Assembly: GCA_021796055.1 (NCBI GenBank)
Contig: JAJYOS010000068.1
Coordinates: forward strand, 1-13,353
Source: Bacteroidota bacterium
GTDB lineage: Bacteria > Bacteroidota > Kryptoniia > Kryptoniales > JAKASW01
Direction: 5' to 3'
DNA: 13,353 nt
A program made the translations under genes and the position numbers. The notes beneath the pieces were generated by a model that ran no database searches, was not told where the DNA came from, and worked only from the letters and a program-made list of their open reading frames with translations. Of this stretch, positions 5,382 to 9,227 are shown one piece after another. Numbering within the stretch: position 1 is the stretch's first letter; every line of letters starts with the position of its first letter.

Positions 5382-5573
5382 AAGAATAGAACTGCGCTGG
5401 TCTTGCTTAATCACCGCCATCTTGCTTTACTATTTGAGCCGGAAGTCATGTGACATTAAACGAGGATAGGCTTCGATCTGCGCTATCGTGAAGATTTCAA
5501 TCCAAGTTCCAGGAAGGAACGAAAACGGGCGCATTCTCTTCAGTGAATACAGTTGTCCCACGAGGAGCCGATA

Positions 5574-7292
5574 ATGAATATTAACTTCACACATAGTCTG
5601 CCTTATGGCCACGCTGCCGCGGATAAACTCCATCTCTCATCGCTTGGCAGGATTTCACTCATTCTCGTGATGCTCTTTGGCGCCCTGACTCCGTCGGGCG
5701 CCTCAGCCGGATTTCGAGCCGCATTCGTGGATGAACTAACGCCGCTGTATCCCGATTCGAGAATCAAAGAAGTTGCCCTTCAGGAACCTATCGTTCTCGA
5801 CGCCGCTAGAGGCACATTCGCCGGCGTGCACATTCTTGTTACGGACCTTCGGCCAAATGAGCCACTTAATGTCGAGGTAAGAAAATCAAAGCGATGGCCT
5901 TCAGAGTCTGTCGGTATCTATCAACTTCTTAGCGTTCCCGTAGAAATTAACTCCGGTTTACTTAGCCGTACGGAAAAATGGGATGGTCAATTCAATCCTT
6001 ACGTCATACGGCGCGCTCCCTTCCGTGTGCACGATGTGATGAAGCCGATCAAGTCTAGAATCGATGTTGACGATTCGGTCGCCGCTATCGCTTTTGAAGT
6101 GAAGGTGCCCCGTGACATGGAGCCGGGTGAATACGGCCTTGAAGTCATTCTACGTGCGGACACTGAGAGGATCGTCAGGCATCTTACGATCAGGGTGCAT
6201 TCTGCCGTGGTTCCACAAATCGGCAAGAATACAATGTGCTACACTTGCTGGTTCTCTGAGAAGAATATGCTTTGGGGTACTCACGACACACTATGGAGTG
6301 CTGCCTTCTGGAGAATACTTAACAGGTATGCCTCCTTGATGGCGCTGGGGCGACAAAATACTTTCAGGCTTCCGCTGGATTTGGGCTCGACCAGCAGCGG
6401 ACAGTACCTTCTCGACACTGCTAGAATGGGAAGAACGATCTCTATCTTACAAAAGCATGGCTTCTACTATGTGGAAGGGGGGCCCTTCCTTACCTCAAAG
6501 GGGAATCATCTCATCACTGGTGGCGGATTCCCGGTACGAAACAGTCGAGGAACAGCTGAATTGGTATCGACGCTCGACCAGCTTCACGATTTCATAGAGA
6601 GGGAGCATTTGGAGGGAAGATGGTTTCAGCATATCCAGGATGAACCGGGTCCAAACTTGGATAGCGATTATATATTCGTCGCTCGGCTCATTCACGAGAA
6701 GCTCCCCGGTGTGCGAGTGTTGGAAGCCGGGGACAACAGGGATCTTGTTGGCGCTATCGACGTTTGGTGTCCAACGGACGACCAATATCAAGAGCATCGG
6801 GAATTCTACATGGGGCGACAGAATGATGGTAACGAATGTTGGGTTTACACATGCCTCACTCCAACCGGTCCGTGGATTAACAGGCTTCTTGACATGGAAA
6901 GGCTGCGCCCGGTATATATCGGCTGGGGGGCGGCGCTTTTTGGCACTTCTGGATTTCTCCACTGGGGGCTAAATCAATATTACGCGAATCCATTTAAACA
7001 AAGCGTGGTAGACCACCCGGATGCGCCTCACACGAACGATCAACTCCCTGCCGGAGATCCGTACATCGTCTATCCTGGACCCGGGGAACCGTGGCCCTCT
7101 GTCCGATTTGAAGCGCTGAGGATTGGGCTTGAAGACCGCGAACTACTTCGTCAGCTTGACGAGAAGGATCCAAAGCTCTGCCGAATGATAATACAGCAGG
7201 TGTTTCGGTCGTACGATGAATACAACAAGAGTGTGAAGGTCTACCGGGCAACCAAGCTGCGTTTGCTGGATGCGCTTGACAGCGCCGAATAG
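5574..7292 (+). CDS. Exported DUF4091 / GH123-like glycoside hydrolase
   Basis: The ATG at 5574 follows AGGAG (5563-5567) by 6 bases and is preferred over the in-frame TTG at 5553; it gives 572 residues. An N-terminal signal peptide (LGRISLILVMLFGALTPSGA, then ASA/G) predicts export. Residues about 55-210 look like a beta-sandwich domain. A TIM-barrel-like region follows, containing FQHIQDEPG with the adjacent acidic pair Asp356-Glu357, the arrangement used by GH123 beta-N-acetylgalactosaminidases (substrate-assisted catalysis, Asp-Glu pair). The C-terminus has GFLHWGLNQYY and PSVRFEALRIGLEDRELLRQL, the hallmark end of DUF4091 proteins. DUF4091 is often annotated as a putative glycoside hydrolase; the actual sugar is unknown here. 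There is no T9SS tail, so it is probably periplasmic or a conventionally exported protein. It lies 192 bases after the hybrid kinase, on the same strand. Confidence 0.85.
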   Translation: MNINFTHSLPYGHAAADKLHLSSLGRISLILVMLFGALTPSGASAGFRAAFVDELTPLYPDSRIKEVALQEPIVLDAARGTFAGVHILVTDLRPNEPLNVEVRKSKRWPSESVGIYQLLSVPVEINSGLLSRTEKWDGQFNPYVIRRAPFRVHDVMKPIKSRIDVDDSVAAIAFEVKVPRDMEPGEYGLEVILRADTERIVRHLTIRVHSAVVPQIGKNTMCYTCWFSEKNMLWGTHDTLWSAAFWRILNRYASLMALGRQNTFRLPLDLGSTSSGQYLLDTARMGRTISILQKHGFYYVEGGPFLTSKGNHLITGGGFPVRNSRGTAELVSTLDQLHDFIEREHLEGRWFQHIQDEPGPNLDSDYIFVARLIHEKLPGVRVLEAGDNRDLVGAIDVWCPTDDQYQEHREFYMGRQNDGNECWVYTCLTPTGPWINRLLDMERLRPVYIGWGAALFGTSGFLHWGLNQYYANPFKQSVVDHPDAPHTNDQLPAGDPYIVYPGPGEPWPSVRFEALRIGLEDRELLRQLDEKDPKLCRMIIQQVFRSYDEYNKSVKVYRATKLRLLDALDSAE

Positions 7293-7463
7293 CTGCTCGT
7301 TTGAGAGATGAGGGTAAGACCGTAAGCATGAAGAAAGACGGCTCTGAGTTTTGCGCAACGATCCGGATAAGAGGTTTCTTGAACCGCGAATGTTGGGAGT
7401 GAGATACCAGAGGGATCGAGTGAAATTGGCAAAAAGTGCGGAAGATAAGAGACTGAGAAGTGT

Positions 7464-7540
7464 TGGTACTGGCGGCGGGATTCGAACCTGCGACCCCTAG
7501 ATCCACAATCTAGTGCTCTAACCAACTGAGCTACGCCAGC
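7464..7540 (-). tRNA. tRNA-His (anticodon GTG), non-canonical acceptor end
   Basis: It is a full cloverleaf on the minus strand. The acceptor is GCTGGCG paired with CGCCAGT, the D-stem GCTC/GAGC, and the anticodon stem CTAGA/TCTAG with loop TTGTGGA (anticodon GTG, His). The T-arm is GCAGG-TTCGAAT-CCCGC, and the encoded CCA lies at 7464-7466. Oddities: the base before position 1 is T, not G, so there is no encoded G-1; the discriminator is A73 rather than C73; the first pair is a G1-U72 wobble; and the T-stem has an A51-C63 mismatch. Most bacterial tRNA-His genes encode G-1 opposite C73, the main HisRS identity element. It lies 73 bases downstream of dacB on the same strand, with its own promoter. 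Confidence 0.96.
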
Positions 7541-7563
7541 ATATGTGCTAAATTTTGTGCTTT

Positions 7564-7592
7564 AATTTAACCAAATTCAGCCAAAATCTCAA
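7564..7592 (-). promoter_or_regulatory. Promoter of tRNA-His, sigma70-like
   Basis: On the minus strand TTGAGA (7592-7587) and TAAATT (7569-7564) are separated by exactly 17 bases. The expected start is near 7557, about 17 bases before the mature tRNA 5' end at 7540. The AT-rich block stands out from its surroundings. This is a motif match only. Confidence 0.55.
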
Positions 7593-7613: not shown

Positions 7614-9227
7614 TCATTCGCGTTTGAGGCCTTGCCCTGAAATCTCATGCGGGCGATGAGTCGTCTTTCTGAACCGTCCGACTTCCTTGCGCGGCTTCCG
7701 TCTCATCGGGGCCCGTCTACTGTATTCGCGAATCCCAAACGTACCGATTCTGTGCACGCGAAGGTTCCTGACAAAGACCCTTAAATTGGGGCTGTACTGT
7801 GTGAGCAAAGTACAAATGCTGTCTTGCAGGCTTCTCATTGAATCTGCGTTCCATGCAATATTCTCCATCATCATCGAGAAGACCAGCGTGTCATGCGGAA
7901 TGAATATGTAGCCGGAAAGAGTGCGGACTCCAAGCAATGAACCAGTTTTCGCGTGGACTAAACCTTTCACGAAACTCTGAGTCATCCTGTCCTGAAGAGT
8001 ACCCGCTTCTCCGGCGACGGGGAGACTGTTAACGAATATATGCTTGTATGGTTGGTTAAGGTCGTAGCGGAGGACATGCACGATGGCGTTGGGCGTAATG
8101 AGGTCGTAATGGGAGACTCCCGAACCATCCACGATGAAGTATTGTGTCGTGTCTACTCCACATTGCTCAAGGAAAGTTTTCTCAAGAGTAATTCCATTCT
8201 TTGCGCTTCCCACCTCATCCGCAGTTGCCATCGGGACCGTGCGCAGCATGCACTCCGCGCCCAGATTATCCGACACATGGTTGATATACGTGACCACAGT
8301 GTCTATCCCATGTATCAGGGAAAACACCTGCACGCGAGACGTATGGTCCGTATAAGTGCGCGTAACATCAAGATGTCCGAGTATCTTGACACCGTGTTTT
8401 TCCAGAAGCTCTCGCAAGACGGTCCCGAAATAATGAGCAGGATGTCGCACCGAGAACTGGTAAGTCGTGGGAGTGAAATCGTCCGTGTAAGTTCCAGTAA
8501 CGACGATCGTATTCACGCCATTAATCATCTCACGCGTTACGTTAATTGTGTCAATATCTCCGGGTTGAGCCAGATTGTCGATCTTGATAAATGAAGTCTC
8601 GGGATAAGTTGTGACGACAAGGCCGCTTCCTGATGGATCCAACGAAACAAAAACGTTTACTACGTCGTGCTGAAGCTCTGCCGGTGCGATAAACATGGCA
8701 TACGGTTCCGGCTCGTCGTCCCACATCCAACCTGCCCCCCATTGAAGGGAATCGAATTTCGAAATGTCGAGGACAAGATTTCCCGTAACGGTGGTAATCC
8801 CGGTCGCTTCTATCGCCTTAGCCGCTGAATCGAGATCATTCATTCTGATTATTGGATCGCCCATGCCGACAACGACGAGGTCGCCGACCAGGCTATCTTC
8901 CCGCTGCACTCCCGCGAAGTCGAATGGAGTGGCGAAAAGATAACCCTTGCCGAGACTATTCAGGGCGAAAGAAGTCGTCACAATTTTTAGGTTACTGGCG
9001 GGGAGAAGTAAAAGCCCGGCATTTGTGCTGAAGATCGTCCGTCTTTCTCTGAGCGAGTAGACATCGACAGCTTTCTGCGTTCCGGGCGATTTACTTTGCG
9101 AAATCATGTGATTAATCTCGCGTTTCAGGAGACGCTGCGAAGCTGTTTCCTGCGCGTAAATGCATGGCGAAATGACGAAGATCAGAAGGATGATCTTCAT
9201 TGCAAGAGAGACAGGGGAGCGTTTCAT
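7614..9227 (-). CDS. dacB: D-alanyl-D-alanine carboxypeptidase/endopeptidase, PBP4 type (S13)
   Basis: This periplasmic penicillin-binding protein of peptidase family S13 trims or cleaves peptidoglycan cross-links. It has 537 residues with an N-terminal signal peptide (IILLIFVISPCIYA/QE). All three penicillin-binding motifs are intact: SxxK as PASNLK (Ser78, Lys81), SxN as VSDN (Ser319-Asn321) and KTG as HAKTGS (427-429). The long insert between the first two motifs is typical of PBP4. Its ATG overlaps the stop of the upstream regulator gene as ATGA, indicating translational coupling and supporting this start over the second Met at codon 10. Odd: the last 50 or so residues after ICTLLTQYSP form an Arg/Lys-rich tail (for example RRAPMRRKPRKEVGRFRK), beyond where S13 proteins normally end. 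It is the last gene of the kinase-regulator operon. Confidence 0.93.
   Translation of the reverse strand: MKRSPVSLAMKIILLIFVISPCIYAQETASQRLLKREINHMISQSKSPGTQKAVDVYSLRERRTIFSTNAGLLLLPASNLKIVTTSFALNSLGKGYLFATPFDFAGVQREDSLVGDLVVVGMGDPIIRMNDLDSAAKAIEATGITTVTGNLVLDISKFDSLQWGAGWMWDDEPEPYAMFIAPAELQHDVVNVFVSLDPSGSGLVVTTYPETSFIKIDNLAQPGDIDTINVTREMINGVNTIVVTGTYTDDFTPTTYQFSVRHPAHYFGTVLRELLEKHGVKILGHLDVTRTYTDHTSRVQVFSLIHGIDTVVTYINHVSDNLGAECMLRTVPMATADEVGSAKNGITLEKTFLEQCGVDTTQYFIVDGSGVSHYDLITPNAIVHVLRYDLNQPYKHIFVNSLPVAGEAGTLQDRMTQSFVKGLVHAKTGSLLGVRTLSGYIFIPHDTLVFSMMMENIAWNADSMRSLQDSICTLLTQYSPNLRVFVRNLRVHRIGTFGIREYSRRAPMRRKPRKEVGRFRKTTHRPHEISGQGLKRE

Follow-up and report, generated by a model that had tools for sequence, protein, structure and literature searches.

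A tRNA-His gene without G-1 in a Bacteroidota genus and its probable acquisition together with an altered HisRS

The rules by which tRNAs are identified are usually held nearly frozen, because a synthetase and its tRNA must change together. The 13,353-nucleotide stretch of DNA analysed here, called the window below, carries a tRNA-His gene from which G-1:C73, the canonical histidine identity of nearly all bacteria, is absent. This raises the question of whether the gene serves as the working tRNA-His of the cell and, if so, how it came to be there. Pairs of a G-1-less tRNA-His and its synthetase (HisRS) are known from the alphaproteobacterial Rhizobiales, Rhodobacterales and Caulobacterales, and from most SAR11. 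The accessible parts of two papers name one group of alphaproteobacteria as the only bacterial exceptions (PMC4284800, PMC6471195), and in those of a third the trait is held to have likely arisen once in bacteria (PMC3937112). Titles and abstract openings in the open literature, a scope outside which most subscription papers fall, contained no report of the trait in other bacterial phyla. We consider it highly probable that the gene is the cell's working tRNA-His under an altered identity rule, its charging being predicted from sequence, and that the pair of tRNA and HisRS entered the ancestry of the genus by lateral transfer.

The tRNA-His gene in the window

ARAGORN places a single tRNA in the window, a minus-strand tRNA-His(GUG) spanning 7540-7464, and RF00005, the tRNA model of Rfam, puts it at the same position with 69.8 bits, compared to a gathering score of 29. 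Direct reading of the letters gave a T at -1, so that the gene has no G there (position 7541), a G1:U72 pair in an acceptor stem of seven pairs, A73, an encoded CCA and a T stem in which A51 is mismatched with C63. Apart from the stem length, these are the features described in the earlier note, and ARAGORN, Rfam and direct reading bear them out. The gene and its upstream region are laid out as follows:

7464..7540, minus strand: tRNA-His (GUG), G1 to A76, with encoded CCA (ARAGORN; Rfam RF00005, 69.8 bits; sequence)
7541..7541, minus strand: position -1, a T (G in canonical bacterial genes) (sequence)
7540..7540, minus strand: G1, facing U72 (sequence)
7468..7468, minus strand: U72 (canonical: C72) (sequence)
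7467..7467, minus strand: discriminator A73 (canonical: C73) (sequence)
7504..7506, minus strand: anticodon GUG (ARAGORN)
7477..7477, minus strand: C63 of the A51-C63 T-stem mismatch; A51 at 7489 (sequence)
7564..7592, minus strand: candidate sigma-70-like promoter, TTGAGA-17-TAAATT, 24-52 bases upstream of the tRNA (consensus match only)
7614..9227, minus strand: D-Ala-D-Ala carboxypeptidase (PBP4, S13), the upstream neighbour of the tRNA, context only

One promoter-like site was found upstream of the gene, compared to 0.2 expected in shuffled sequences. At 153-1478 and 5553-7292 the window also encodes two proteins that point to a polysaccharide-degrading setting, one of them GH53 and carrying a T9SS tail, the other GH123-like.

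tRNA-His and HisRS in the genome of the species

As a stand-in for the genome of the window strain we used G000, the species representative, a draft of 240 contigs that is 99.8% complete. The window is 99.7% identical to contig C122 over 7356 bases and 99.3% identical to C59, the contig carrying the tRNA, over 1578 bases. C122 reaches only to window position 7356, and neither contig matches the window in every letter, so that the window is, judged over these 7356 + 1578 bases, a close strain of G000. Rfam gave 44 tRNA hits for G000, with 14 of its 164 first-look candidates left unscored, and one of the 44 is a tRNA-His. The same single gene was found by blastn with the window tRNA and by model R1, a tRNA-His model based on genes from the window and from E. 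coli; none of the three detected a second. The genome has one hisS above the curated cut-off (TIGR00442), and it is of the altered clade described below.

The earlier note had suggested that the gene might be a degenerate extra, in which case a canonical pair would do the work. Two features could be taken as marks of such a copy, redundant or in decay: the A51-C63 mismatch, and the difference between G000 and the window immediately 3' of the tRNA. However, a canonical second tRNA-His with an ordinary HisRS was sought in this 99.8% complete draft and not found, the one tRNA-His detected being the gene in question and the one hisS above the cut-off altered, and the canonical tRNA pattern was found in none of the 13 genomes of the genus. 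Furthermore, the tRNA body is identical letter for letter in G000, G008, G010 and G012, T-stem mismatch included, and the mismatch is therefore no sign of decay. We find a decaying copy very improbable. The encoded CCA, which the earlier note had also pointed out, is present in the window but is an unstable feature: none of the nine genes read from the genus encodes it, and of the 32 altered genes of the class five do.

Window (position 7463) and G000 (L020, 831-900) part ways at the 3' end of the tRNA-His, and the G000 frame adjoining this end begins excisionase-like in our own reading of the letters: MTEILTAKEVAQ. The tRNA-His may be an integration site, a candidate role that would also account for its variable CCA.

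A second explanation, likewise raised in the earlier note, is that a Thg1-like enzyme adds the G-1 that is absent from the gene after transcription. This route is known in eukaryotes, and Thg1-like proteins occur in some bacteria (accessible part of PMC6471195). Like eukaryotic tRNA-His with a Thg1-added G-1, the gene has A73 and no encoded G-1, but its setting is bacterial and a Thg1 homologue was not found: PF04446 matched neither G000 (0/1) nor any of the 64 genomes searched (drafts), while the control, Methanosarcina acetivorans, was positive. The HisRS is altered as well, and the additions made by Thg1-like proteins are described as restricted to Watson-Crick pairs, A73 being no template for G (PMC6471195, PMC4284800, in the portions available). 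Addition by Thg1 is in our opinion highly unlikely. If the gene is a working tRNA-His under an altered rule, as we prefer, RNase P would cut it at +1 and no G would be added. A G-1 neither encoded nor added is also described for Acanthamoeba and trypanosomes, where an atypical HisRS copes (PMC6471195, PMC4284800, both in part); their enzymes are set apart by description, as dissimilar to bacterial ones, in the available text of PMC4284800.

The motif-2 Gln is replaced by Asp in the HisRS of G000 (D149), and the motif reads WRADKPDPGRFREF in G000, FRHERPQKGRYRQF in E. coli and mostly WRNEKPGPGRFRQF in the fetched Rhodobacterales. The ancestral Gln touches the G-1:C73 pair, whereas Gly is derived and covaries with tRNA-His in alphaproteobacteria, according to the accessible part of PMC3937112. 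The enzyme clusters with those of alphaproteobacteria that are known for a tRNA-His without G-1. The earlier note had pointed to the motif 2 loop as the place to compare hisS with its canonical and alphaproteobacterial counterparts, and the alignment shows a divergent clade in which Gln is lost, with Asp instead of the alphaproteobacterial Gly, which was not found in G000. KPDPGR is present in 12/12 genus enzymes covering motif 2, whereas RPQAGR is found in 3/3 enzymes from f2, a family of the same order as the window's family f1, and in 3/3 canonical enzymes from a further family, f3. Altered-clade enzymes of the class with motif 2 covered have Asp in 36 cases out of 37 and Gln in one (G338), and a search of the G338 genome did not find its tRNA-His. 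In named non-alphaproteobacterial altered HisRS among the matches listed, the residue is Gly in 12/18, Asp in 5/18 and Ala in 1/18; as read from these enzymes, motif-2 Gly is not confined to alphaproteobacteria.

The pair is like the alphaproteobacterial one in having no encoded G-1, G1:U72, A73, no Thg1 and a HisRS that has lost the motif-2 Gln and stands on the same side of the tree, and unlike it in that the host is no alphaproteobacterium and motif 2 has Asp here and Gly there. With the canonical E. coli type it shares the anticodon and the general tRNA body, and its HisRS passes the same family model, TIGR00442, but it is without G-1, C72 and C73 and has KPDPGR for RPQKGR in motif 2. In the parts available of the respective papers, histidine identity in Caulobacter is assigned to A73, U72 and the anticodon (PMC9976931), A73 is called a minor element there (PMC5370408), and the Caulobacter tRNA-His/HisRS pair is reported to be orthogonal to E. 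coli (PMC3875453), while for another alphaproteobacterial HisRS G1:U72 and A73 are critical and the anticodon is not (PMC7590224). Given these differing reports, the weight of each element may vary among enzymes. The HisRS of the genus would read A73 and U72, and perhaps the anticodon too, as reported for the alphaproteobacterial enzymes. Work against a eukaryotic origin of the latter is cited in PMC5370408, as far as accessible.

Could the gene be alphaproteobacterial DNA brought in by contamination or misbinning? The genus genomes are drafts, but the tRNA shares its window with a T9SS sorting domain, on the GH53 protein, the altered HisRS profile is matched by 13/13 genus genomes, and the HisRS of G000 is only 40-44% identical to alphaproteobacterial HisRS. 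Its named close relatives are mostly Bacteroidetes, Kryptoniota or Kryptonia, with one named Acidoferrales, so that both the T9SS domain and the HisRS relatives speak against an alphaproteobacterial host. We regard contamination as refuted.

Distribution of the altered tRNA-His and HisRS

Model R1 found a readable tRNA-His in 39 of 61 relatives; 12 are altered, 27 have G-1, G1:C72 and C73, and none is intermediate, a split that goes beyond chance. The genus, with 13 genomes including G000, accounts for nine of the 12 altered ones. The altered tRNA-His pattern was present in 29 of 391 genomes of the class (none for a reversed-pattern control), and a HisRS profile at E<=1e-70 matched 40, including all 13 of the genus. 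Both were found in 28 genomes, the tRNA only in one (G322) and the HisRS only in 12 (Fisher p=3e-32, for genomes that are related and not independent). Three genomes (G172, G241 and G390) have an altered tRNA with C38, which the pattern missed. G282, a HisRS-profile match with a Gln-type motif and a canonical tRNA-His, is counted within the 40 and excluded from the 39 altered-clade genomes. No tRNA-His was seen in eight of these 39, presumably due to assembly gaps, and the 31 with a readable tRNA-His all have an altered one (31/31). The canonical tRNA pattern was found in 212/391 genomes, but in 0/40 HisRS-profile genomes compared to 212/351 others (Fisher p=2e-15, the genomes again being related); this pattern misses true canonical genes, as in f2, where it found 0/7 and four genomes read as canonical.

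Letter by letter, all 32 altered genes have G1:U72 and A73, and their position -1 is T in 22, C in nine, A in one and G in none. All 30 canonical genes (E. coli included) have G-1, G1:C72 and C73. Each genome contributed a single gene, so that L271, an additional altered copy in G373, is not counted; G322, with both types, counts once in each set. U72 and A73 are required by the pattern through which 17 of the 32 altered tRNAs first came to light; the 15 found by R1 without it have U72 and A73 too. Position 38 is A in 12 of these 15 (C in three), versus C in 26 of 27 canonical genes, and may be a further difference between the two types.

Within the class, the altered tRNA-His occurs in six families, f1, f13, f31, f22, f3 and f19. 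Genomes of f2 are canonical in the 4/7 that were read, and f3 contains one altered genome, G057, alongside 10/12 with the canonical pattern. Beyond the class, the best 80 loci listed for this type of HisRS include Bacteroidota, Acidobacteriota, Planctomycetota, Hydrogenedentota, Neomarinimicrobiota and Bipolaricaulota, besides Rhodobacterales; many of the named genomes are metagenome bins with names given by their depositors. Among named altered-HisRS genomes from the matches listed, a tRNA-His was read in 20/24, with G1:U72 in 19, A73 in 19 and C73 in none; model R2 scored other tRNAs near tRNA-His, and for the remaining 4/24 (G064, G069, G078 and G079) the fetched loci held no tRNA-His. The altered tRNA and HisRS are found together in Acidobacteriota, Planctomycetota, Hydrogenedentota and Neomarinimicrobiota, and in Bipolaricaulota with G73. 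The earlier note had suggested a second lineage with the altered rule, which is true but too small: there are six families in the class, at least four more named phyla and a fifth with G73. By record titles, the same tRNA set occurs in six groups, namely the window's class, Acidobacteriota, Planctomycetota, Hydrogenedentota, Neomarinimicrobiota and Alphaproteobacteria, and the lack of G-1 is unsafe as a once-only phylogenetic marker.

Variants were also seen. L231 (G074, Bipolaricaulota) has G73 with G1:U72, L224 (G076, Planctomycetaceae) has C1:G72 with A73, and one Planctomycetota genome has G at -1 but A73.

HisRS trees, gene linkage and transfer of the pair

The altered HisRS, together with G282 on a long branch, are split from the canonical enzymes of the class and E. 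coli with an SH-aLRT of 100. They fall into two groups, one with f22, f3, Planctomycetota, Neomarinimicrobiota, Bipolaricaulota and the alphaproteobacteria, and the other with f1, f13, f31, Acidobacteriota, Hydrogenedentota and another Planctomycetota. The trees are quick searches with long branches, and the groups for the AU tests are taxonomic and were chosen after a first tree was seen. In these tests a single clade for the altered HisRS of the class was rejected (p-AU 2.3e-5), as was one clade for the six Planctomycetota rows (p-AU 1e-62), whereas f1, f13 and f31 as one clade were not (p-AU 0.215). This favours at least two entries of the altered HisRS into the class, and since the f1, f13 and f31 clade was not rejected, a single older entry into these three families is possible. 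Whether the alphaproteobacterial enzymes are nested inside the others was tested by forcing all non-alphaproteobacterial altered HisRS together, with a borderline result (p-AU 0.06).

tRNA-His and hisS lie within 10 kb of each other in 16/31 altered and 0/15 canonical genomes of the class (Fisher p=6e-4), and within 500 bases in 7/31 altered ones. These sets comprise 31 altered genomes with both genes located, without G322, whose hisS is a fragment, and 15 canonical ones including G282. The two genes share a contig in 17 altered genomes (one at 47 kb) and in six canonical ones (40 kb to 1.46 Mb), and lie on different draft contigs, where distance cannot be judged, in 14/31 and 9/15, respectively. 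Among the matches listed, a tRNA-His was present in the fetched flanks (up to 2 kb) of hisS in 7/18 named non-alphaproteobacterial and 0/5 alphaproteobacterial loci, and the genes stand side by side in Acidobacteriota, Planctomycetota and Neomarinimicrobiota. This suggests, as far as gene order and trees can tell, that tRNA and synthetase spread laterally between lineages as a unit. For the window's genus co-transfer is read from the relatives only, since its tRNA-His and hisS are on different contigs in 9/9 genomes read.

Alternatively, the altered rule arose in place, tRNA-His and HisRS having changed together by descent. The lack of linkage found in the genus fits this explanation, as does the f1, f13 and f31 clade that was not rejected. 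However, the HisRS lies within a multi-phylum group, far from that of f2 in the same order, the altered enzymes of the class do not form one clade, and G057 is altered inside a family in which the canonical pattern prevails in 10/12 genomes. We therefore find an origin in place improbable; like the decaying copy, the Thg1 route and contamination, it was considered and rejected on the points counted against it. Acquisition of an alternative tRNA/HisRS pair, one of the possibilities listed in the earlier note, is the best supported, by the HisRS clade, the co-occurrence in the class, the linkage in relatives and the conflict of tree and taxonomy.

According to the transfer explanation, the pair would have entered the ancestry of the genus from outside. 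As no cross-reaction with the resident G-1:C73 pair is expected, it could have functioned from the start, and such orthogonality would explain why a foreign pair was taken up whole. The old pair would then have been lost, and the two new genes are no longer found together in the genus, whereas related families often still have them side by side.

The gene downstream of hisS in many altered loci is histidine ammonia-lyase-like (hutH), with PF00221 in 6/6 tested; the best matches of these proteins are NCBIfam histidine ammonia-lyase models in 7/7, above cut-off in 3/7. By tblastn with one protein query, hutH follows hisS in 21/23 altered class genomes outside f1 with at least 300 bases downstream and in 7/17 named non-alphaproteobacterial loci among the matches listed, and in 0/13 genomes of the window's genus, 0/14 canonical class loci and 0/62 alphaproteobacterial hisS loci among the matches listed (two with less than 60 bases downstream). 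G373, G412, G360, G322 and L063, with too little downstream sequence, are left out of these counts. In G282, hutH stands in front of the Gln-type hisS. Unlike the alphaproteobacterial loci (tRNA-His 0/5 and hutH 0/62 among the matches listed), related families often keep tRNA-His near hisS and hutH. One may guess that a useful catabolic gene carries the tRNA/HisRS pair along. A hutH-like gene directly after hisS was also seen in distant lineages (L057, L058, L056, L351, L352, L353, L356 and L214).

We lean slightly towards a wider picture, in which an orthogonal tRNA-His and HisRS, often with hutH behind, form a portable cassette that moves between phyla and displaces the resident pair; the alphaproteobacteria would then be just one of many recipients rather than the source, and G322 would be caught in the middle of the swap. 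In G322 an altered hisS fragment, cut by the contig end, lies beside an altered tRNA-His, and a canonical tRNA-His is on another contig. The altered pair (L350, C161) is on a 3.8-kb contig and adjoins phage terminase and portal genes. With both tRNA types, G322 could be an intermediate; a mixed bin is also possible. The neighbouring tRNA and enzyme genes, and a switched genome in a mostly canonical family, provide a natural series for testing the exchange of a translation rule, and the many HisRS/tRNA-His pairs, possibly orthogonal to E. coli, would be useful in genetic-code engineering.

Viral carriage of the pair was considered and found unsupported by scans of IMG/VR, in which no stretch with a tRNA-His had a HisRS. 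Of the 47 stretches that matched the tRNA pattern, 13 contain a tRNA-His according to ARAGORN and none a HisRS. Four HisRS loci came from one scan of IMG/VR and none from two further viral scans. Of the four, three are Gln-type by motif, two of which adjoin tRNA-Pro, and one is alphaproteobacterial-type. The latter (L346, IMGVR_UViG_3300025759_000462), on a contig classed as viral, has a TyrRS-like frame, in our reading, and a tmRNA nearby.
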